From: Thozetella sp. PMI_491
Lineage: Eukaryota; Ascomycota; Sordariomycetes; Chaetosphaeriales; Chaetosphaeriaceae
Assembly: GCA_021432635.1 (NCBI GenBank)
Contig: MU270038.1
Coordinates: 806,001-870,000, forward strand
Reading direction: 5' to 3'
DNA: 64,000 bases
Position 1 is the stretch's first letter. Every line of letters starts with the position of its first letter. The position numbers were made by a program, and so were the translations under genes. The notes under the pieces are model-generated. The model worked only from the letters and a program-made list of their open reading frames with translations, did not search any database and was not told where the DNA came from. Below are positions 28,747-48,646 of this stretch, one piece after another.

Positions 28747-30145
28747 ATGAAGAAGTTTGGCTTCGGAAAGAAGAAGGATGAGGAGTCTCAGGGCAACCCC
28801 TACGCCCAGCAGCCCGCCGGCAATCCCTATGCTCAACAACCTGCCGACGACCCCTATGCCAATGCGCCGCCACGCGTGAGCCCTTACCAGCAAGCACGAA
28901 GCAACTTGCCCAGCGGTCCTCGCCCTGGCGGCCTCCCTGGCGGGCCTCGCGCTGGTGCCGGATATAACACGCCCCCGCCGCCATATGCAAGCAGCGGACC
29001 CCGACCAGACGGTGGCTATGCAAACGAGAAGGTTGGGGCGACCGGTGGCTATGGAGGCAACCGGTATGACAACAACGCAGCCTTCAATGCGAACCAGCGA
29101 ACAACTGCCCCGTCTCGCCAAGGCGGATACGGTGGGATGGGCGACACGGAGACCCAGCGAGACGATCTCTTCAGCGGTGCCCAGAGTCGCTATCAGCAAC
29201 AGCAGCAACAACCATCAAAGTTTGGCGGCGACGATCGATATGGATCTTCTGGCACATCTGCTACCGCTGGTGGAGACTATGGTGGCTACGGCGAGCAGCG
29301 CGAGCTGACCGAGGAAGAAAGAGAGGAGCAGGAGGTGGACGATGTCAAGAACCAGATCCGACAGACCAAGCAAGAATCGCTTGCTTCCACCCAGCGGTCC
29401 CTCGCTATGGCGGAGCAGACTGAATCAGTGGCTACTGGCATCTTGGCGAGGCTGGGTGCTCAAGGCGAGCGCCTTCACAACACCGAGAAGAACCTGGACA
29501 TCGCGTATGTTGACCCTCCTCCCTCTCCATCTGCGCAGCGCGAAGTGTGTAGTTTCGGGAAGTCACTTCTGCTGACACAATGGGGTGCAGTGCCACTCAT
29601 AACCGCATAGCAGAGGAAAGGGCGAAGGAGCTCAAGACCCTGAATCGTAGCATGTTTGCTGTCCATGTCAGCAACCCCTTCACCAAGAAAACTCGAGCCG
29701 CCGAGCGTGAGGGACAGATTCTAGCCCAGCATCAAGCTGATCGGGAGACCCGCGAAGCAACAAGGCGAGATGCCTACAAGTCGCAACAGAGAATGGAAGA
29801 AACCTTCAAGAACCTCCACGTTTCTCAGGGCGGAGGGTTAGGACGTGCTAGCGCTGCGGAGCGGTCGAAATACCAATTCGAGGAGGATGACAGCGCCGAT
29901 GAACATATCGATGAGAACCTTGAGAAAATCTCGCAGAAGGTTGGCATCTTGAAGCGGGCCGGCGTTGCCATCGGAGAAGAAGTGGACAGGCAGAATGTCC
30001 TCATCGACAGAATCGACCATAAGGTCAGCATACCTTTCGCCCCCTTGACCTTTTACGCGCTAACCACTAGCCAACGTAGACCGCCAAAAACATTGACCAC
30101 GTCCAATCGAACACTAGTTATTTGGGCAATAACTTCAGGGGTTAG
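28747..30145 (+). CDS. sec9: Plasma-membrane t-SNARE SEC9 (SNAP-25 family)
   Basis: Three exons: 28747..29504, 29591..30023 and 30080..30145, 418 aa. SEC9 supplies the Qb and Qc SNARE helices that pair with Sso-type syntaxins and Snc-type synaptobrevin for exocytic fusion. It is essential in fungi. The N-terminal 190 residues are Gly/Pro/Tyr/Gln-rich and disordered, with NPYAQQP repeats and a YQQQQQQP run. The Qb SNARE motif spans about 198-253 (zero-layer Gln in RLGAQGERLH) and continues past the first splice as ATHNRIAEERAKEL. The Qc motif spans about 355-412 (zero-layer Gln in EEVDRQNVLIDRID). No transmembrane helix or palmitoylation Cys cluster is present, as usual for fungal Sec9. The last exon, 66 bp, ends NTSYLGNNFRG. 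A plp-1-type NLR gene lies 3.9 kb downstream (see findings). Confidence 0.93.
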
Positions 30146-30761
30146 AGGGAGAGGTGGACATGGATGTTCATACGAGGTCTCTTCGCATCCTAAGAGAGGG
30201 GGTAGTGCGTTGTCTTCTATCCTGTTTCTTTGGAATAGTCTAGTTACTGGTCAACGTAGTCCTGTAATAAGCTTGGGTCATGCTCCCTGAACCTCACCTC
30301 CATCGACTTCGATATCTATGTAAATCCATGCATATAGACACCTCCAGCGGGGCACTTTGGATTGGAACCAGCTTCGGTTTATACGATGAATATCAGTGCT
30401 AAGACAGTGCGAATGCGAGGGCCTTGTAAGGCTGCAAGAATAAGACTTGGTGTGATAGTACAGTACTTCGGCCTAGCAAGGCAGTTGAATAACGATTTCC
30501 AATACAAGAGCAGCTTAAATATTTCAGCCTACATACACTTATTAGTCTATAAACTTCTTAGGCCAGCGATGAGTGCTCCTGCCTATCTCAGGTATTTACC
30601 CCCTGACCATTAGGGGGTGGGAAATACCCATAAACTGCTGATACACCACTACTTGCCCCACCCTATGATAGGCTTCCTCATCCACAATTTTTTTTTCCCC
30701 AACCACACGTAGTTATCAAGTCTCACAACTCAACACCACGCCACCCTGGCAGTCTTCCGAG
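30146..30761. other. AT-rich intergenic stretch between SEC9 and the helicase gene
   Basis: No gene is seen. AT-rich sequence fits SEC9 3' UTR and the helicase promoter; a TTTTTTTTCCCC pyrimidine tract lies near 30690. Confidence 0.5.
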
Positions 30762-33029
30762 ATGCCGAGAAAAAATAAAGACGGCGAGAACCATGATATT
30801 CTCAAGATCGGAAATAAATCAATATCCCTCGAGGGCTACTTGACTAAAAAACCACCTGTGAGCCAACCGGCCACAGGCACTACCTCCCTCCAAGAGCCAA
30901 CTGTCGAAAAGCTACCAGAACCAGTGCAAGGCCGGTACTCAAAACGTCGTAAAATCTCGCAACACACCGCGGTTGGTGACTCCCAATATTTCAAGACCCG
31001 CCAAGCTCTCCCGCTATGGAAGCACCAGGAGGGTATCCGCCGCGTTATGGCGGAGCACGATGTGCTGGTGCTGGTCGGAGAAACTGGCTCAGGAAAGAGC
31101 ACCCAAGTCCCGCAGTTCTTGTTCGAGGAGGACTGGTGTCAAAGGAAGAAAGTCAAGGTCAAAAGAGGGGAAATTGTGGAAGACGTCGCTGTCGGAGGAA
31201 TCATCGCCATCACACAGCCTCGACGAGTAGCAGCGACAACCTTGGCACATCGAGTTTCTCGAGAAGCAGGGACGCCGCTAAGTGGACAGAAAGGAGATAT
31301 CGCCAACAAGGGACTTGTGGGGTACTCCGTCCGCTTCGATCACAACGTTCCGAAGGGGACCCGGATCAAGTTCCTAACAGAAGGAATGCTTCTACAGGAG
31401 CTTATACGAGACCCTCATCTTCGGCAGTACAGCGCCATCATCGTTGATGAGATTCATGAGAGGAGCGTGGATGTCGACTTGCTCTCGGGCTTCTTAAAGC
31501 AGATTATCTTAGGAGACAAGGCGGGACGTGGAGGCTTACCTCTGAAGGTCGTCGTCATGAGCGCTACCGCTAACGTCGAGGGGATACGAAACTTCTTCTC
31601 AGACTCAGGATCAAGTGAGCGGCTGCAAGCTGAGTTCCTCCTAATCGAGGGACGGCAGTTTCCCGTGGAGGTTATCCACACCCCAAAGCCCGTGGCCGAC
31701 ATTCAAGAAGCACTTCTTCAGAGATTGCTCGAGATCCACAAACAAGAGCCGCTGCCAGGTGACATCCTGGCGTTCCTTACCGGCCAAGAAGAGATCGAGG
31801 CTATGCAGAAAATTCTTGAAGAAGAAGCTAAAAAGCTGCCCTCGGGTGTGCCCAAGCTGAAAGTCTTCCCTCTCTTCGGCCAGCTCTCGATCGAAGCTCA
31901 GCACCAAGCCTTCCAGCCTATCAAAGGGGGCATGGCACGGAAAATAGTCCTTGCCACGAATATTGCCGAGACGTCCGTCACGGTTCCAGGTGTGAGATAT
32001 GTGGTAGACTGCGGGAAGGCAAAGGTCAAGCAGTTCCGTACGCGACTCGGAATGGAATCGCTGCTAGCAAAGCCGATTTCGAAATCCTCGGCAATCCAAA
32101 GGACTGGCCGAGCCGGACGTGAAGGCCCTGGCAAATGCTACCGACTATATCCGGAGGAGACTTTCGAGTCCCTCGAAAAGACTGATCTCCCCGAGATTCT
32201 CCGCACCGACGTCTTGGGCGCCATCCTCACAATGAAAGCCAGGGGTATTGAAGATGTCCTTTCGTTCCCACTCATGGACACCCCAGATCTTGAGTCTATC
32301 GAGAAAGCACTTGTCCACCTACACCTTCTTGGCGCCTTGGGCGACGATGGCTCGATCACCGCGATGGGTCGTAAAATGGTACTCTTCCCCGTCACTGCGC
32401 CATTTGCAAAAGTTCTCCTCGTCGCTGCGGCGCCAGAGAATGACTGCCTGCTCGAGGTCATCGATATCGTCTCTTGCATCACTTCGGGTGAGGATATCTT
32501 CCTCCATCTACATTCGGAAGAGGTCAAAGAGGAGGTTGAAGAGCTGCGGAAAGAACTTTCCAGGAGAGAAGGCGACCTCCTCACCTACCTTACCACCATA
32601 CAACGCTATGCGTCGGAGAACACAGACCGCATTGAGTGGTGCAAGACGAGGAGGGTTAATGTGAGGAACCTGCGGCAGGCGATGAACATTCGGAAGCAGC
32701 TGCGTGGCCTCTGTCTCAAGGAAGGAATGCTAGAAGAGGCACCCCCATCAGATCCGCAGCCTTTTGAGCCCGTAGCCCCAGAGAAAGCCGAGACCATCTT
32801 GAAGTGTTTCCTCCAAGGCTTTGCGCTCAAGACGGCAGTTTTGGCACCGGACAGTAGCTACGTCACCACTTACGGCAAACATGTCGTTGCTATTCATCCA
32901 TCCAGCGTGCTGCACGGGCAGAAGAAGGAAGCTATCATGTTCCTAGAACACGTCTTCACCCAAAAGAACTATGCGAAAAAGGTGAGTGTTATCCAGGCGC
33001 AATGGGTAGCGGAGGCACTAGGCGCGTGA
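30762..33029 (+). CDS. DEAH-box RNA helicase, Dhr2/DHX33-like
   Basis: A single exon of 755 aa, close to yeast Dhr2 (735 aa), a nucleolar helicase acting on pre-18S rRNA. Motifs in order: I GETGSGKST (106-114), Ia TQPRRVAA (150-157), II DEIH (228-231), III SAT (266-268), TGQEEIEAM, V TNIAETSVTVPG, VI QRTGRAGREG. After these come the HA2/ratchet region (LLGALGDDGSITAMGRKM) and the OB-fold tail (YGKHVVAIHPSSVLHG). The N-terminal extension is short and basic (KRRKIS, 61-66), as in the Dhr2 group, rather than the long extensions of Prp2/16/22. Splicing helicases are the main alternative, but the N-terminus and the end (KKVSVIQAQWVAEALGA) favour Dhr2. A GTGAGT within the final codons is read as coding. 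Confidence 0.85.
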   Translation: MPRKNKDGENHDILKIGNKSISLEGYLTKKPPVSQPATGTTSLQEPTVEKLPEPVQGRYSKRRKISQHTAVGDSQYFKTRQALPLWKHQEGIRRVMAEHDVLVLVGETGSGKSTQVPQFLFEEDWCQRKKVKVKRGEIVEDVAVGGIIAITQPRRVAATTLAHRVSREAGTPLSGQKGDIANKGLVGYSVRFDHNVPKGTRIKFLTEGMLLQELIRDPHLRQYSAIIVDEIHERSVDVDLLSGFLKQIILGDKAGRGGLPLKVVVMSATANVEGIRNFFSDSGSSERLQAEFLLIEGRQFPVEVIHTPKPVADIQEALLQRLLEIHKQEPLPGDILAFLTGQEEIEAMQKILEEEAKKLPSGVPKLKVFPLFGQLSIEAQHQAFQPIKGGMARKIVLATNIAETSVTVPGVRYVVDCGKAKVKQFRTRLGMESLLAKPISKSSAIQRTGRAGREGPGKCYRLYPEETFESLEKTDLPEILRTDVLGAILTMKARGIEDVLSFPLMDTPDLESIEKALVHLHLLGALGDDGSITAMGRKMVLFPVTAPFAKVLLVAAAPENDCLLEVIDIVSCITSGEDIFLHLHSEEVKEEVEELRKELSRREGDLLTYLTTIQRYASENTDRIEWCKTRRVNVRNLRQAMNIRKQLRGLCLKEGMLEEAPPSDPQPFEPVAPEKAETILKCFLQGFALKTAVLAPDSSYVTTYGKHVVAIHPSSVLHGQKKEAIMFLEHVFTQKNYAKKVSVIQAQWVAEALGA

Positions 33030-33139
33030 GCCTAGAAAGAGCTTCAAGGGCTTAGGCATATTATTGGTAGAATAGTGGCAGCAATGGTATACATAGGTTC
33101 TACAGTATGTACAATTCTGGTGACCTTAGACGAACGACT

Positions 33140-33632
33140 TCACTGGTCCTGGCCTTCTTGTTCTCTGCCTTGAATGGTCTTCATGAGCTCATACAGTTGT
33201 CCAAATTGCTCGTCTTTCTCGATGTCAGTAACTGCTTTCGAGCGCGTTGATTCGCTTACATGACTTACCGCTCATCTTTTCTATCTTTCCCGGATCCAGC
33301 TTCTCGCCGACCCATGAGTCTCCTTCAATCTTCTGGGCATAGAGCTGCCATTCGGTTAAGAATCCGATCTACGTAAGAGTAAGCGTCGAGGTCCCCTGAG
33401 GCATCGACAGGGAAGGGCTCACGAGATGGACCGGGTTGTCCACAGTTCGGTGCGCCCGGAACTCAGCTTTAATGTATTCATCTCCCAAGAGACGCATCTC
33501 TCTTGGGAGATGCTTGCGGTGCGCCCTCAGGAGTCTTCTGTAAAGTGGTATAGGAGGGAGAATCGCCAGGGGAGCTGCTGAAAGGCCCTTTGACGGCACT
33601 GCCGACGCGAGGCGCCTGATTGTGACCCTCAT
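33140..33632 (-). CDS. ACN9: Succinate dehydrogenase assembly factor 3 (SDHAF3/ACN9), mitochondrial LYR protein
   Basis: Three exons: complement(33140..33213, 33269..33368, 33423..33632), 127 aa. It is a mitochondrial matrix chaperone that protects the SDH iron-sulfur subunit during complex II assembly. The N-terminal 25 residues (MRVTIRRLASAVPSKG...) form a mitochondrial presequence. Next come the LYR-type block PPIPLYRRLLRAHRKHLP (31-48), DEYIKAEFRAHRTVDNPVHL and, across the first splice, IGFLTEWQLYAQKIEGD. The tail is FGQLYELMKTIQGRE. Introns are 54 and 55 bp and phases agree. The ATG at 33632 is preferred over the in-frame one at 33713 because it gives the basic presequence directly. The client subunit SDH2 is encoded at 48647-49624 in this window. 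Confidence 0.9.
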
Positions 33633-34051
33633 CTCCCTGTCACGTAATAGAGCTGTGCTGAGACCAGAGTGATAGATCCGTATTTGTCCGTGAGAGTGCA
33701 CCTCGGCATACACAGATTTTGGCGTTGATTGTACGGAAAAGTAACCTGCTAACTAAGACTTTTCTACGGGCGGAAAGTACTGGTGCTTACAGTGTTGATA
33801 TATAAGCGCACTGTTTAATTCACACTGTACTGAGAGGCTCTATCTTTTACAAAATCTACATAACTACCTTCCTTGCCTTGTCAAACTTATGGGCGCCTCT
33901 CGGGCTTTCGTTTCCGCATCAAACCCGGTTAAATTTACGTGATTTAATGGATTCGATAGTGGCATGGAGCAGATATTTTGCTAGAAGCTTAAATTTCAAC
34001 ACACTTGTTAAAATAGGACCTTTCGGGGGTGTCTCAATGCGCCTCCGGTTG
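33633..34051. other. AT-rich spacer between SDHAF3 promoter and the NLR 3' end
   Basis: No gene seen. It is noticeably more AT-rich than flanking DNA. A TGATATATAAG word near 33797-33807 could, read on the minus strand (CTTATATATCA), be a TATA box about 165 bp before the SDHAF3 ATG. Confidence 0.4.
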
Positions 34052-37000
34052 CTAAAGCACTAATAAACGCCTAACGTATTCTATGTTTTCGAGACTGGTC
34101 AGGTCCGGGGTTTGCCGGCTTCTGTGGAGCCTCATAATATCAACTGTGACATCGAGATCTTCTCCGAATATGTTGTAGTGGTCTCGTGCCTGCTTAGTCA
34201 ACGGGTGTTCGACTCCGTAGACATACTTTGATCGCCGCCACACTCTCCACATGGCATTGTGAGCTGTCTTCATATCTCCCTGTAGGTGGAGAAGTATAGA
34301 AAGAGTCGTTAAGTTGTTGATAGTGATTGGGTGATATGCGCCCCTCGATAATTTGCATTGACCATACACTGCGTCGGCCATTACGACCAATTCATCGAAC
34401 ACCTCTTGGGGGGCGTGCGCTTCGGAGAAGTATATCGCTGCGTCAGACAGGAAGCTTTCCAGTGCATCCATCGTGAGCGGGTGGTCAAGCCCATATATCC
34501 TTCTCCGGATCTGCGTAGCATCCCAAAACATCAAGGTTGACTCCAGCCGTCTTCTACCGACGAGACCGAGTTTGGTGGCTACTGATAGCATCGCTACCAC
34601 TGTCCGAGAAGAATCTTGTCCTAGGGTCGCCTTGCACACATCCAACCAATGAATTTCCGCGCGCAGAACCCTATCGGCCGCCTCGTGGTCGTCAGGCGAT
34701 TGACTCCAGTGCATTTCCGCAATGATCGCTTCATCCTCAGCTGCCGTCCATGGGTCTTTAGCGCCATTGTTCCGTTCCGCTTCTTGAACCGCCTGCAGGC
34801 ACTGTAGAGCTTCCTGGCGGCACTCGTGTAGCATATAATGGTTTGCCAGCTCTCGTCTTGCCATGATCGTGCGGGCGTGCTGGGGTCCCGGTCCGGGTTC
34901 CTTCTCGCTTCTTTCGAGCAATTCCAGGCGAAGAGCCAAAGAACCCCAGATATTGCCTCGGTCGTTCTCAAGCCCCGGCATCAAGTCGAGGACGTCAAGT
35001 GTTTCCGGAGCATGGGTTCCAAAGGCTCTCTGTTTACCCCGGAGAGCCTGCGACAATTCCTCCTCGAATTTAATGAACATTCGATGTTCCCGGTATACCA
35101 TCCCATATCTAAAATGGTATTCACTCTCAATAGTATCATTATTCCAGGGCAATGCGCGTCGTATGAGATCCGCATCAGGCAAAGGCGAGCCACCATCTCG
35201 CTCACCAAAGTACTCGACAGCTTGAGGGATGGCCTTCAAATCTTTCGTTCTTGGTTGGCTGGAAATGCAGTGGTCAAAGGCCCGTTCGGGGAGACGTTCG
35301 AGCGGCATTAATCCCGTGCATACATCGAGATGCGCGAGGATCGCCCGTCGGTGTATAACATCCTCGCCTCTGTCTCCGCGTTGGATCGATTCGAACAGCA
35401 GTGCCCTAGCCGAGAGAGCTTGCCGCACCCTGATAGCTGGGTCCATCCGATCCCTAGCCCAGGAATGGGTCAGAATGTGGATGGACCAAACGTCCCGGGC
35501 TGTCTCTTTCACAAGGGACATCTTTTGGAGAAGGTTGAACCCCAACATAACAGGGTTCGGGTCCCAGTTGCCACCGTTGTCAGTCTGAATGAGAGCAGCG
35601 GGCGAGTCCTTGCTGCTCGCCAGGGGAAACCAAGGACCATGCTTTCCCTCAAAACGATCTGCCGCAGCACGACGGAATATGTCCTTGGTAAGGCCCTCGT
35701 TGTGGAAGAAGCATATGATGTCAAGAAGCTGAAGAGCACTGCGTGCCTCGAGCGCTTGGCTAGATGCCCGGGATCTCTTCGACAACTCGATCAACTTCTT
35801 ATAGGAGAGATCAAAGGTGGCGTAGACAGGTAGGTCTTCCTGTGAACTCCCTTTCATCAACGGGAGACTAAGCATCGCCTTCCGCTGTGCACGGAAAATG
35901 CCCAAGTAGCGTCCGATGTGAATACCTGATTTTCGAATATATCCTCCGGCTTGATCAATTGCCAGCGGGAGATGCCCAAGCTCACGGACGATTTCCTTGG
36001 CCGTCTTTCGATGTTCATTGTATTCGTCGTCTTCGTCCGCCGTCCTCAGAAGCAGGGTAGCAGCGTCCTCCTCCTCCATTTCGGCCACGCATGTGCGGCA
36101 ATTGGCCGGCAAGTTGCTGATTGAAATCTCTCTGCTAGTGAAGAGGTAGCTACCCCTATCCACTTTGGGTAAACTGCTCCAGGAATTCTCCTTGCTCCAG
36201 TTGTCGACGACTAGCAGCCACTCCTCCGTCGAGTTGTCGAACCACCTGAGGACATCTTGCATGCTGGCCGACCTCGAGTCTCCGGAGGGGAGGACGGAGT
36301 GAGCAATAGCGATATAGCTTTCTTGAAAAGTTACTCGATTCGTTGCATCGACCCAGAAGGCGTATTTGAACCTAATAGCAGTTAGGAACCGGATGTGAAC
36401 ATGAAGCAGCCGACATGCCTGTCTCGATACATCTGCACGAATTTCCGCGCAATTTGACTTTTCCCAGAGCCACCCATGCCGTAGAGGAGATATTGCCGAC
36501 GCACGATCTCATCGACCTGAGGGTCCCGAGAGACGAAATGTGCCGCGAGGGAGTCGAGGATTTTCTCGCGGCCGGTGAAGAAGGGTGTTGGGATTACCAC
36601 GAGATTCGCGCTCCCATCCGCTGTGAGAATCTGATCCTTGTCGAGGAAACCTGTTCTGCATCAGTATCGTCGCCGCTGCATACTTCAAAATGACAGGAAC
36701 AACTCACAGACGTGGCCAACAGTCAGTCCTGGTCCCATCCTATGGCCGGCCAATATCTCAGCTACGGTCTTTATATCCTCCCTGATGGTCGACTGTGCCA
36801 GGTACTCCCGCGTTCTAGACTTGAGCTCATCGATCTTCCCATAGCTCGCGAGGCTAATATCGTTTGCACCGCCCTCCACGTTGAAGCGGAACATAGTGTC
36901 CTCGAAGAGCCGCAGCCTCTCTTTCACCTCGTAGCCGTCCTTCTCTGTGTCAACAGCAAGCTCCTTGAGGACTTTAATGACCCTGACTCCCCATCGTACT

Positions 37001-37925
37001 GTTCCAATGATGCCCGAAGGCGGAGCCAGATCATTGGGAAGCGACCTAGTCCCGGTTCCCAGACTCAGTATGCAACCCAATCTGCGGTCCTTCCCGAAGA
37101 TCTCCGCTGCTTCGCTCAACAGCTCGTTGAGGGGATTGTTGCACCCAAGAGCAGCATCTACGAAACTCTCGGTCTTACCATTGCTGGTTATCTCCATAGC
37201 ATCGAAGTAAAAGGGCGCTGCACTTGTCGCGCGTGCTGCCTCCCAGACCCTGCAGTCCTAGATTCCAACGTTAGAGAAGGATGTAACCGCTAAGCTGGTT
37301 GCTTACCTCTCCCCAGTTGTCCCCTGACACTGCGTAAGAGCGGAATCGCCGGTAAACACCATTTGTGGCGTTTGTTGGTCTGGCACAGACGAACATGCGC
37401 CCTCGCTCTGGATCATCCGGTGCAAGCATCAAGTCTCCCATTCCTCTGCCTTGGACCAGATCCTGAACGGCTCTCTTGAGGATATGCGATTTGAACATGG
37501 CCCCTCTTCTCACAAGTGCTCTCTTTGACTTATTCCGGACCGAGAATATTTTTTCCGCAAAGCTGTCGTAGGCTGCTAGAGCCTCTGTGGTGCTCATCTG
37601 GAGACGACCCAGCATGATAGCGATGAGACTAGGTAGTTGTAAGTCTTAGAAGGTGTTAGATGTTCCATAAGCTCTTGGAATATTCTTACCCGCCAGTACT
37701 TGTGCCAGCGATGAGGTCGAAGAACTCGCATGGCTTTGGCAGCTCTTCAAGATTATCGAGCTCTTGGACCTTGCGCATTATTTTGTCAAGAATTACAAGC
37801 TCTGATACCCCCCTAACTCCACCGCCATCTGCCAGTCACGCTGTGTTAGCCCAGGTCAGTGTTGGAGGGGATGGAGGGCTGGCTGTACCCAGGGCCAGCA
37901 GGTTCACCGGCCGGTCAGTCGACAT
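34052..37925 (-). CDS. plp-1: Fungal NLR: patatin-like phospholipase / NB-ARC / TPR (PLP-1 type)
   Basis: Six exons: complement(34052..36371, 36431..36650, 36708..37257, 37307..37628, 37690..37828, 37889..37925), 1195 aa, all junctions in phase. Residues 1-345: patatin-like phospholipase, with oxyanion-hole motif DGGGVRG (13-19), nucleophile elbow GTSTGG (Ser56) and catalytic Asp200 in DAALG, so the dyad is intact. Residues about 370-640: NB-ARC switch, with P-loop GMGGSGKS (407-414), kinase-2 EEWLLVVDNW (Asp479), RNBS-B-like GSYLFTSREI and GLPL-type LGHLPLAID (554-562). Residues about 830-1160: degenerate tetratricopeptide repeats, for example HPITINNLTTLSILLHLQGD and YGVEHPLTKQA. In Neurospora and Podospora, PLP-1 of this architecture guards SEC-9; NBD and patatin activity are needed for cell death and the TPRs carry specificity. 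SEC9 is nearby. The first exon (37 bp) encodes MSTDRPVNLLAL. Confidence 0.92.
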
Positions 37926-40764: not shown

Positions 40765-42409
40765 CGTGATGCACGCAGACGAGAGACGGAGGGGAGATGG
40801 GATAGTAAGTTGGAAGGGCGAGTTTGGTGGGAAGGGGACTCTTTCCTTTAAGACGGGATCTGAGGTGGGATGTTTAGTATTTATTTTTCGCAACCCCCTA
40901 CCAACAGGGAGGAGGCGAGGTAGCACTCCTAAAGCCGTTTGCTGCTAGACCGGACGGTAGCTAGGTAGGCCTCGGTGTCAAGATCCCACCGGAAGGAACG
41001 ATCGTGGGTCTCGGGACAAGGGTAATTAGATCTACGCCTACTTGGGTGAACAAGTACAGCCAAGGTGGACGTGAAGGCCTGTATGGCTTTCGAGACCAGC
41101 CAACCGAGGCTCTGTGACGGGCTTGTGCAATTAATTGTAAACAAAAGAGGCGTTCGAGAAGGTAGAGAGGTCTTAGAGGTCTTGGGACACAGCTAGTGGG
41201 GAGTCGGTCCGGCTTGTGTCGCCTGCGGAGCCCAGGTGTATGTAGCACTTGGATGGAAAGGCCCGGGAAGGGAAAGGGGGGTGTGAGAGAGTGGGTTCTC
41301 TCGGCGGTCTAACGGGGTCATTGTTGGCCAGTTTACGGGCGGCCGAGGACGGACGCTACCTGCGATATCCCGGCAGAGCTGGTCCACGCGAGCTCAGACA
41401 TGGGCCCGGGAGGGGTGAGGACCAGCGCTGAGCCGTTGGGACGGGCCATGCTGCGTGGGCAAGCGGGCAAAACGAACATGCGAGGTCCCTCATCGGATGC
41501 TGGGAAGCGGGCACGGAGCAAACAAAACCGGCCACGCCCAATGAGCATCGCACCATGGAAGGCGGCAATCCGCCCGCCCGCCGAGCATGGGGGGTGGAGG
41601 AGGAGCTAGTAGCCTGCCCAAGGTAGTCTTGCCTGCTATCTCGAGGCGCGCCGAAGGAGCGGGCAAGGTCGCAAGGACAGGCAGGCAGCTGGCCGAGCTG
41701 GGGGTAGGAGGGGGATAGGAGAGGGCGGATGATAGAAAGAATCGTAAGTCGTCCAACCAGAGCCGCCCGAGGCGTTTTACACTGCCGAGAATAGTCTGCG
41801 GTGAGTGGCAAACCAGAGGCCAGGGTCTGCCACCGAGCCGAGCCATGGGCCAGTAGAGTGCCCGCAGCCGTCCTGCCTGCAGGGCCTGCAGGGCGGCCTT
41901 CTTTTACATAGACAAGGCCGGCGGTCTCTTGTCTCTTGTCTCCCCCCCCCCCACCAATGCCACCATGCCTTGGTGCGCAATTCGGACCTGTCTGGTCTGG
42001 TACGGAGGTAAGTGCAGGCCCAGCCCGGCCCAGGCCCCGCACCGATGTTCCAGAGGCTAGGAGTTACCACGTATCTGTACTCAAAAAAAAGTCCCAGAAG
42101 GATTTACGCATCCAGTCTAGTGGGCAAATAACCATACTGGGTAAAGAGCGACCGGATAGGACACCCCACGGAAGCCTCCCCGCTTTTCCAACCTAGCAGT
42201 CGGTAGCCCTTCAAGCCCTTCCATGTAGCCCAAACCGGTCTTGCATCGAGCCACAGCCAAGGCCACACCGTCCTACCTAGACAGGAAAAAATTGTCCTAC
42301 GGATGTCCCCATAACGACGATCGTACGCTCGTCCGCATATTAACTGCCATCCACCAACCGCATCCGCCGCCGAGAGAGCCGCGCCACCGCGCCTCCAAAG
42401 GCAAAAAAC
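40765..42409. other. 1.6-kb intergenic region between divergent genes
   Basis: Long GC-rich frames occur on the minus strand (41356-42042, 228 codons) but overlap frames on the other strand and read like translated non-coding sequence. An 11-C run lies at 41942-41952. No recognised feature otherwise. Confidence 0.4.
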
Positions 42410-43618
42410 ATGACGACTCCCTTCTCCTTCTCCTTCTCAGGCGAGGACATAGAGGACGACCAGGCGGCGGCGGCCACCCCGGCCTCACCGACACCCAACC
42501 TGGCCTCGACCGCGGCAGCGTCGTCTGCGTCGGCTAGCGCCTTCCCTGTGCAGGGGAAGCCACTGCTGCCGCCGGTGCGCCACGAACTGGACCACATGCT
42601 GGCGCGCTTGCCCTCCAAGATCGCTTATAGCCTCCTGGCTGTAGATCTAAACGGTGGCACCGGCGGCGTCATTCAGCTCCCGCGGCGGGAGCTGTGGGAC
42701 GTCCGCGTCCAGCTGATGGCCGAGGATGAGGCTGCCCATGGTGACGACGACGCCGAGCTCGACCCCGGCCTCGGCAAGCATGACGTCAAGACGGGCATCT
42801 ACGAAGGCGGGTTCAAGAGCTGGGAGAGCAGCGTTGATCTCGTCAAGGTCCTGGCGGCGGAGCACGTGCCCCAGATGCTGACCCAGCACGCATATCGCTG
42901 GATCGAGGTATGGACACGACCACCAAGGAAGCTCTAGCTGCTTTGGGCGAGAGAGCATAGACTGACAGGCCTGCAGCTGGGATGTGGCACGGCGCTGCCT
43001 TCTCTCGCCATCTTCCAGTGGGCCGCTGCTGCAGGCGCAGTGGGTAGGAGTTTGCCCCTTACGCTAACGATGGCCGACTACAACCCGTCTGTTCTATATC
43101 TTGTGACTCTACCCAACTTCGTCCTCGCCTGGGCCCTCCAGCAGCGCGAAGGCAGCGTCCTTCTCGAGGAAGCCCTGTCCTCCACCGAGGGGGAGCTGGA
43201 GCTCGGCGAGGCCGTCGTAGCGGCCTTCAAGGAGTTTCTCATCTCTAACCATATCACCCTGTCCTTTCTGTCTGGCGCCTGGTCCACGGAGTTTGTCGAT
43301 CTACTGTATCCTTCGGAACCCTCCCCGGCATCGTCAGAGCTCACCCGAGCCCTCGTCGCTGGGGCCGAGACGATATACTCTCCTTTTGCTCTCAGCAGCT
43401 TCACCGAGACGCTGCTCTCGATCCTGCAGCGTGAGCACGGTGAGCGGCCAGGCGGCCAGGCTGTTGCCATCATCGCTGCGAAGCGCCTCTACTTTGGCGT
43501 TGGCGGGTCGCTTGACGACTTTGTGGCGAAGATTCAGGGGCTCGGCGCGCATGTTGACACGCTTCGTGAGGAAACAGAGGGGGTTCGACGCGGCGTTGTG
43601 AGATGCTTCCTCCCTTGA
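42410..43618 (+). CDS. HPM1: Protein-histidine N-methyltransferase (HPM1/METTL18-like)
   Basis: Two exons: 42410..42907 and 42977..43618, 379 aa; the 69-bp intron is in phase 0 after RWIE. The family methylates a histidine of ribosomal protein uL3 using S-adenosylmethionine. Visible blocks: MTTPFSFSFSGEDIED, a very typical HPM1 start; YEGGFKSWESSVDLVKVL (about 130-147), the GLKVWECS-type motif; the SAM motif LGCGTALPSLAIF (167-179); and MADYNPSVLYLVTLPNFVL (about 199-217), matching the QDYN..VL..VT.PN block. C-terminal sequence includes SETIYSP-like VAGAETIYSPFALSSF and AAKRLYFGVGGS. The length is near the yeast protein (377 aa). Confidence 0.92.
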
Positions 43619-47105: not shown

Positions 47106-48646
47106 GCATCTGTCTCGCGGATCTCGCGAGTTGGCAGCTTGGTTGGACACGACGGGCACGCGGATTCGGGCGCCTGGCTGGAGTGGATCGGATGTTAGAC
47201 CTGCATATCTCGGTTTGGTGCTCATGGTACATACGACGTCTTTGTTTGGTAATTCGGTAGGGGCGGGTCGGACAGGGCCGACAAGGCACCTGGGCTGACG
47301 CCCCCAATTCCGCACGCTGGATTTTCTTTTCTTGCAAAATTGCTCGAGCATGGAAGGCACCCGTCACAAACCCCCACAAAATAAGGAGGAAGCATTAGCC
47401 CTCTGAGGAGAAGGGACAGCTATTAGTTCTCATTTGCCTGGTTCGTCTCAAGGTCGCTTGGCGCAATACTGGCCTCGCGCACGTGCGATGTGTACATAAT
47501 ACCAAATTAATCACGGTTTGCGAAATTTGTGCTGATATGCCCGTAAACGATGTTGTCCCTTGCGTTGCACGTCGAACTTCAACGGCCAGATGTCTAGCGA
47601 GCCCTGCTCATGTGAAGTGCCTGAAGCAACTTTCCGGCTAGATGCATGCCGAGGTCCAGATCTGTGTGATCCGGGGTTCATGCAAGGCGGGTGGATGCGT
47701 ATCGAGTAAGGTCCAGCAGGATTGGGGAGCTCCCTACTACCAATTGGCTTTTTTGTCCGCTAACATTGTGAGTTCGCGGGATCCATACCCATCGTGCCGA
47801 ACAAGACCTAGGCACACACGGGGTTTGTTCAACCTCTGGATCTCTCCGATTAGGCAACTCGGATCGAGTGGAAGCTCGATGCTGCAGGACCGCATATGCA
47901 ATTGTGGCCCCAATAATTGCCCATCTTATACAGCGTTGAGCTCTCACGAGTGGGTGGGTAACTTCCAACCTGTGGGTAACTTCCGACCTGTGGGTAACTT
48001 CCAGCCTGTGGGTAACTTCCAGCCTGTGGGTAACTTCCAACCTGTGGGTAACTTCCAACCTGCAGAAGACACCGCATGCGTCTGCGAGAAGTCAAACCTC
48101 GTTGGCTCCAAGGCGTCCGCCTAGCCCAGAGCAAGGCTGCCTCCAATGTAGCTGGGATTTAGAAGGCGATCAACGTCAGCTGGAAAGATTGCCACAACTA
48201 CCACACATTATATAGAAGGTGTTATGGGTTAGATTGGAACAACGGTCACATGGAGAGACACGAAAAGAGAAAAGAGACAGAGACAGAGAGAGTCTAGAGT
48301 TAGGCATGTATAAAATAGCTTAGCTTTCATAACTATCTAGCAACCTCTTGTCTTCAGTGAACCAATAAGGCAGGTGGAGTTGGGTGGCAGGCGAAGCAAG
48401 ACACATATCTCGCAGCTTATGAGGTATATACTCTTATCGTAGGTCATGGAACGCGAACTTGGCGTGGTTTGGTGGTTTAAAAGCCCCTTTTATTTTTTGC
48501 AGCTGTGATCGAGTAAACTCCAACCATGCAAAAACACCCGAATACAGTATACAAAGCGGCGTCCATTCTGGAGCTTCGTCCACCACTTCTCATCCACACT
48601 TTATACCGCGTTCTTTACTCCTCGTACATCACCAGTCCGCTCCCGT
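47106..48646. other. Intergenic region with a minisatellite
   Basis: Convergent 3' ends of the GPI gene and SDH2. It contains the 18-bp tandem repeat listed separately and a GAGA-rich patch near 48255-48295. A 160-codon frame through the repeat is not considered a gene. Confidence 0.45.
47954..48061 (+). repeat. Minisatellite, six 18-bp units
   Basis: Six head-to-tail copies of GTGGGTAACTTCCAACCT, with single-base variants at the third-last AAC/GAC/AGC position. The unit is a multiple of three and would translate as VGNFQP, but no convincing gene spans it. Confidence 0.95.

Follow-up and report, generated by a model that had tools for sequence, protein, structure and literature searches.

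The 64,000-nucleotide stretch analysed here (the window; positions 806,001 to 870,000 of contig MU270038.1 of Thozetella sp. PMI_491) carries a block of four genes that recalls the PLP-1/SEC-9 recognition system of other fungi. SEC9, a t-SNARE found as one copy in the genome, is physically linked within 9.2 kb to a NOD-like receptor (NLR) with a patatin effector domain, and a DHR2-like helicase and the assembly factor SDHAF3 lie between them (Table 1). A first-pass annotation had placed SEC9 at 28747-30145 and the NLR at 34052-37925. Exon-level re-reading found these coordinates exact to the base and confirmed both the intervening genes and the convergent layout, with SEC9 and DHR2 on the plus strand and SDHAF3 and the NLR on the minus strand. 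In this 72.3 Mb genome, a particular gene would lie no more than 10 kb from SEC9 by chance with p ~0.0003, and any of ten patatin loci with p ~0.003; ten loci is an assumption, and the 25 patatin pieces from a Pfam search of the genome suggest more.

Table 1 Features of the four-gene block (positions within the window)
Feature	Position	Strand	Remarks
SEC9, t-SNARE of SNAP-25 type	exons 28747-29504, 29591-30023, 30080-30145	+	418 aa, no internal stop
Qb SNARE region of SEC9	29317-29648	+	residues 191-272, across intron 1
Qc SNARE region of SEC9	29889-30142	+	residues 353-418, across intron 2; most diverged part; zero-layer Gln387 kept
DHR2-like DEAH helicase	30762-33029	+	helicase domains by Pfam; conserved SEC9 neighbour
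SDHAF3 (LYR family assembly factor)	exons 33632-33423, 33368-33269, 33213-33140	-	Complex1_LYR_2, E 2.2e-21
Patatin/NB-ARC NLR, weak TPR matches	exons 37925-37889, 37828-37690, 37628-37307, 37257-36708, 36650-36419, 36371-34052	-	1199 aa, open, PLP-type clade
Patatin effector part, NLR exons 1-4	36708-37925	-	DGGGVRG, GTSTG and catalytic Asp (DAA) intact
C-terminal sensor region of NLR	34052-35221	-	residues about 811-1199; weak TPR matches; hypervariable between species

Gene models of the block and its neighbours

Searching the PDB with the predicted SEC9 by phmmer returned yeast Sec9 as the top match (E 2.6e-31, residues 203-410). The genome was searched with both the Thozetella sequence and the SEC9 of Mollisia, and the same single locus was recovered. 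The C-terminus of SEC9 hinges on the choice of the short third exon. Compared with a profile built from 50 canonical SEC9 C-termini, the peptide of this exon scored 14.68; scores of at least 14.68 were reached by 10 of the 37,799 plus-strand 18-mers of the window.

In the NLR, Pfam recognized a patatin domain (E 1.3e-22) and an NB-ARC domain (E 2.7e-12), both over cut-off. Families of the tetratricopeptide repeat (TPR) are present in the listed relatives of the NLR. Alignment with relatives found DGGGVRG, GTSTG, DAA and GMGGSGKS all intact, which we take to be the oxyanion loop, the nucleophile motif, the catalytic Asp and the P-loop, respectively. A PDB search with residues 428-1199 gave no match at E 0.001. 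The fifth intron (36372-36418, 47 bases) is the only one in the gene with a GC-AG border.

The public annotation joins the first two genes of the block. Public protein P0241 of Thozetella sp. PMI_491 (1166 aa), which is the top match of the window DHR2 (99% identical), carries residues 1-397 of the window SEC9 unaltered, stopping precisely where exon 2 ends, skips the third exon, and continues with 740 unchanged residues of the DHR2 helicase. We judged this model to be wrong, with two genes merged, because half of the Qc helix is lost in it, while the third-exon peptide scores well against SEC9 C-termini. SEC9 sequence precedes the helicase in five public DHR2 models, from Thozetella, Achaetomium macrosporum, Cladorrhinum samala, Corynascus novoguineensis and Thermothielavioides terrestris, the last with the C-terminal part of SEC9 only. 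Outside Thozetella, the SEC9 assignment in these models comes from our own alignment, and Pfam finds the helicase alone in the models scanned. Annotation-based surveys would miss SEC9 genes buried in helicase models in Thozetella and the four other species.

These fused models also bear on the suggestion that the SEC9-NLR module had been split by two housekeeping genes. Two genes do lie between the partners, but the sense of intrusion does not hold: since SEC9-DHR2 fusions occur in the models of five species, the adjacency of the two genes is evidently old in the group, and DHR2 at least is best seen as a long-standing neighbour rather than a splitter of the module. Among the matches listed, SEC9 and DHR2 were on the same contig in all three named species that had both, namely Pleurostoma, Colletotrichum zoysiae (277,477 bases) and C. 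eremochloae (1,469,283 bases). SDHAF3 may be an old neighbour as well, because an SDHAF3-like N-terminus is joined to DHR2 in Daldinia vernicosa P0337 and Durotheca rogersii P0355, two species that we take to be Xylariales. The two genes are on the same strand in the P0337 and P0355 models and on opposite strands in Thozetella.

Linkage and phylogeny of the NLR

Protein matches in other species were taken from the best 120 of each search, and linkage was read from the size of the contig listed for each protein. The top listed match of both SEC9 and the NLR came from Pleurostoma richardsiae, where SEC9, the NLR and DHR2 are all on a contig of 2,408,833 bases. DHR2 and the NLR were together in Rhypophila sp. 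PSN 637 (169,957 bases), Apiosordaria (1,645,115 bases) and Cercophora scortea (9,498,754 bases), and SEC9 and the NLR in Colletotrichum tofieldiae (182,849 bases) and C. falcatum (334,702 bases). Among the matches listed, the NLR shared a contig with SEC9 and/or DHR2 in all six species of its clade (described below) that had at least two of the genes; a second C. tofieldiae NLR (P0151), on another contig, falls outside this count. The six species belong to Calosphaeriales, Sordariales and Glomerellales and, with Thozetella (Chaetosphaeriales), represent four orders and two subclasses (C. tofieldiae being placed by its genus). The linkage, which the first-pass annotation had singled out as the signal, is real and recurs in other species on the evidence of these shared contigs.

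Two further species lie outside the clade. In Lasiosphaeria ovina a patatin-NLR (P0157) shares a contig (9,163,860 bases) with DHR2, but the species was not counted because P0157 is the counterpart (65%) of another Thozetella patatin-NLR, C88. In Daldinia eschscholtzii the NLR and DHR2 are on contigs of different sizes (2,959,287 and 805,130 bases). This species gives no support for linkage in Xylariales, and its proteins may come from different assemblies.

Phylogenetic analysis of 67 sequences and 611 columns drew on a selection of the best matches to the window NLR, so that the sample leans towards its relatives, and seven of nine Thozetella paralogues were included as a check. The window NLR fell in a clade of 24 Sordariomycete leaves (FastTree 0.998; IQ-TREE 99.9 by the Shimodaira-Hasegawa-like approximate likelihood ratio test (SH-aLRT) and 98 by ultrafast bootstrap (UFBoot)), and all seven paralogues were outside it in both trees. 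Members of this clade included three N. crassa patatin-NLRs and sequences from Podospora pseudoanserina, Apiosordaria, Pleurostoma, Thyridium, Rhypophila, Cercophora, Cephalotrichum and Colletotrichum; one member from Colletotrichum tofieldiae is annotated 'vegetative incompatibility protein 2'. The phylogeny had been named beforehand as a possible ground for refuting kinship with PLP-1; both FastTree and IQ-TREE instead placed the NLR with the PLP-type clade. PLP-1 and PLP-2 were not told apart among the three N. crassa sequences. Closer relations inside the clade were weakly supported (16-leaf node, 0.934 in FastTree and 40.6/71 in IQ-TREE). The paralogue own_C64, a long, partial branch, was away from a 30-leaf Sordariomycete group in FastTree and beside it in IQ-TREE (31 leaves, 97.3/99).

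Closer homologues elsewhere in the genome had been anticipated as another possible objection. The genome search with the NLR yielded 44 matching pieces, five of which were the NLR itself, and 39 of 83 candidates were scored. Nine paralogous patatin loci were compared with the NLR, and several genes among the 25 patatin pieces fall outside these nine. The best-scoring paralogue, C47, was 35% identical over 508 residues (276 bits); others were C18 (37% over 330 residues), C88 (38% over 316), C15 (39% over 312) and C6 (45% over only 80), whereas the Pleurostoma NLR was 45% identical over 811 residues (621 bits). All nine loci were thus more distant from the window NLR than its relatives in other Sordariomycetes, and no closer homologue was found among them.

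Three observations on related patatin genes are recorded here in their own right. The patatin-NLR on contig C88 (positions 41093-43119 of that contig) matches Lasiosphaeria ovina P0157 with 65% identity across 291 residues and represents a line separate from the SEC9-linked NLR. The patatin piece on contig C15 (positions 823326-824367 of that contig) is 62-66% identical to sequences of Capronia/Fonsecaea and 60-63% to those of Zopfia, Aspergillus and Penicillium, and it groups with all of these; horizontal transfer, or loss of the family elsewhere, is possible. Its matching stretch contains two TAA in six-frame reading, perhaps reflecting introns. In addition, the patatin domains of the NLR relatives P0121 and P0145 match the NCBIfam CBASS phospholipase model (bacterial antiviral defence), under its cut-off.

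Divergence of SEC9 and the NLR

Heller et al. (2018) reportedly found that the SNARE domain of SEC-9 gives specificity. Twelve SEC9 sequences of a class that we take to be Leotiomycetes had mean identities among themselves of 89% (Qb), 77% (linker) and 80% (Qc), while Thozetella SEC9 was 63%, 56% and 32% identical to the same 12 in these regions. Four Sordariales SEC9 pieces were 15-32% identical to one another by region, whereas their DHR2 cores were 81-85% identical. It should be noted that these four pieces come from fused models in which exon errors are possible, two being without the Qc motif end and one without Qb, and that the DHR2 comparison covers Sordariomycetes, without a Leotiomycete DHR2 as a control for the general rate. 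No named Sordariales SEC9 was present among the best 120 of 1113 SEC9 matches. The DHR2 of Pleurostoma was 73.8% identical to that of Thozetella.

Despite this low identity, the zero-layer Gln was kept in nine of nine Sordariomycete SEC9 sequences examined. In the SNARE layer register that we assumed, strictly hydrophobic residues occupied 10/15 layer positions in Thozetella, 12/15 in Achaetomium and 13/15 in Thermothielavioides; at surface positions the counts were 8/40, 6/39 and 9/39, respectively. Since the zero-layer Gln and the layer hydrophobics persist, the SNARE helix of SEC9 has retained its core pattern while its surface was altered.

The window NLR shared 37-53% identity with 17 relatives over the patatin domain and 29-43% over NB-ARC, but 13-18% over the C-terminal third. 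The NLRs of Colletotrichum simmondsii and C. abscissum dropped from 95% in patatin to 47% at the C-terminus. In Colletotrichum SEC9, the summed differences in Qc were 19.8 times those in Qb, compared with 1.36 times in 15 Leotiomycetes, a signal that we regard as weak because an acidic part preceding the SNARE helix lies within the stretch compared and a single outlier species contributes heavily. The parts to which specificity had been ascribed, the Qc SNARE region of SEC9 and the C-terminus of the NLR, are therefore the most diverged ones in comparisons between species.

The block is also distinct in base composition. The G+C content at third codon positions (GC3) was 0.594-0.625 in its four genes (28747-37925). 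These were the lowest values of the 15 gene segments tested in the window, the other eleven ranging from 0.652 to 0.814. These segments are stop-to-stop frames rather than curated gene models, two of the eleven come from one gene, and the pattern was picked out post hoc, after the GC profile had been viewed. Reduced recombination could be a reason for the low GC3 across the whole block. Repeat-induced point mutation was rejected as its source, as two indices of this process in 4-kb bins were within the range of other bins. Elsewhere in the window, an 18-base unit is present in six copies at 47954-48062 (95% matching).

A probable recognition pair and its origin

We regard it as probable that the block is a recognition pair of the PLP-1/SEC-9 type that was inherited from early in Sordariomycete history. 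The present data show homology, linkage, focused divergence and active-site motifs that are intact, whereas binding, assembly, cell death and polymorphism between alleles are inferred for Thozetella from Neurospora, Podospora and Cryphonectria. By this analogy, SEC9 would be the essential plasma-membrane t-SNARE, and the putative C-terminal repeats of the NLR would probably sense its SNARE surface. When the SEC9 of another haplotype is met after cell fusion, the NLR would assemble through its NB-ARC domain, the patatin lipase would be activated and the fused cell killed. The sec9-dhr2 arrangement with the NLR close by would most likely have come down from an early Sordariomycete ancestor.

Published work offers several points of comparison. 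In Neurospora crassa, which has both plp-1 (NCU09244) and plp-2, an NLR of the patatin-NB-ARC-TPR type lies close to SEC9, and N. crassa patatin-NLRs are in the clade of the window NLR. PLP-1 and SEC-9 interact physically, and death needs patatin activity and the ATP-binding motif (PMC12881547); recognition is mediated by C-terminal sensor domains (PMC10197012), and four sec-9/plp-1 haplogroups are described in N. crassa (PMC7159315). The Thozetella NLR, however, is 39-40% identical to those of N. crassa over 64-66% of the query, there is one such NLR near SEC9, and DHR2 and SDHAF3 sit between the partners. The NLRs of Podospora, Neurospora and Cryphonectria have been treated as the same gene (PMC3689799). 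For het-Z of Podospora anserina, the Podospora leaf of our clade (P0134) could not be assigned to Pa_1_11380. In vic2 of Cryphonectria parasitica, the partners (a patatin-like protein and sec9) are of the same types as in Thozetella, and the likeness is one of partner types only, no C. parasitica protein being among the matches listed. Bcvic1/Bcvic2 of Botrytis cinerea is likewise an NLR with a SNARE, but Bcvic1 is of the NACHT-ankyrin type and the Bcvic2 SNARE is a syntaxin (PMC11138114). Judging from these sequence comparisons, the Thozetella pair is a further member of the PLP-1/SEC-9 system and adds evidence on the system's age.

Several points weigh against this interpretation. The TPR matches of the NLR were slightly under the Pfam cut-offs (TPR_12, 29.2 bits against 30.1; TPR_10, 25.1 against 27.5), and the leaves of the clade were not matched individually to PLP-1, HET-Z or vic2. 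A shared contig is weaker evidence than adjacency, most so for Cercophora scortea: a short shared contig is strong evidence of linkage and a 9.5 Mb one is weak. Conserved gene order is by itself no proof of function. The NLRs of C. falcatum and C. tofieldiae showed no C-terminal drop (80% in patatin, 87% at the C-terminus). Furthermore, all divergence data are between species, with Thozetella represented by one isolate.

Such between-species data would also fit an NLR that guards SEC9 against tampering, for example by a pathogen or virus, with little or no allelic variation and hence immunity without allorecognition. Guard models have been proposed for NLR/SEC9 pairs (PMC10197012, PMC12881547), but allelic arms races would be expected to focus divergence on Qc and the sensor, as observed, and the NLRs of C. 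simmondsii and C. abscissum drop steeply (though those of C. falcatum and C. tofieldiae do not); we consider a guard function alone unlikely. That gene order was conserved passively, with an NLR whose role is unconnected with SEC9, gains some plausibility from DHR2, which shows that unrelated genes also remain beside SEC9. However, NLRs of this type have been tied experimentally to SEC9 in Neurospora and Podospora, according to reviews, and the SEC9 regions of the four Sordariales have diverged far beyond the adjoining DHR2 cores, which makes passive conservation very unlikely. Least credible, and in our view extremely improbable, is that the SEC9 found here is a decoy or a copy in decay, as might be supposed from the low Qc identity to Leotiomycetes and from the last exon missing in the public model: two different queries found it as the sole SEC9-like gene, the zero-layer Gln is kept, and hydrophobic residues are concentrated at layer rather than surface positions.

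A separate issue, compatible with the mechanism of a recognition pair, is the origin of the linkage, which might have arisen separately in each lineage and been kept by selection against self-incompatible progeny. According to reviews, NLR/SEC-9 incompatibility appeared independently in a number of fungi (PMC10197012, PMC12881547); the sec9-NLR linkage has been called convergent, with separate origins argued (PMC10890737). The different NLR type of Botrytis (PMC11138114), the fact that no Cryphonectria protein was named among the best 120 NLR matches, and the different-sized contigs of Daldinia eschscholtzii would agree with this. Against it, the linked NLRs of four orders fall in one clade and DHR2 recurs as a neighbour, and we find separate origins rather improbable within the group. 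Based on gene order and the tree, descent of the linkage from a common ancestor within Sordariomycetes seems more likely than a 'convergent' or 'independent' origin; the data favour such descent for Sordariomycetes only, and Cryphonectria and Botrytis are outside their reach. In a literature search of limited extent, no published comparison of the sec9-DHR2-NLR gene order was found in the parts of papers available.

A bolder proposal, for which we see the case as evenly balanced, extends the idea of an inherited recognition pair. The sec9-NLR linkage would have arisen once, at or before the ancestor of Sordariales, Chaetosphaeriales, Calosphaeriales and Glomerellales, and been kept together with DHR2. 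Under long recognition pressure, identity in an exocytic SNARE that is essential would have fallen to about a quarter within one order, compared with more than 80% in the adjoining gene, with mainly the buried helix core preserved, and the block may be a low-recombination haplotype that trapped two housekeeping passengers. If true, this single-origin reading would replace the account of convergent linkage.

For the biology of these fungi, gene order and the tree together point to one inherited linkage within Sordariomycetes, contrary to the independent or convergent accounts. SEC9 stands out as a gene that is essential and yet very rapidly diverging in lineages carrying the guard, and SNARE function and immune surveillance may thus be open to study in the same few residues.

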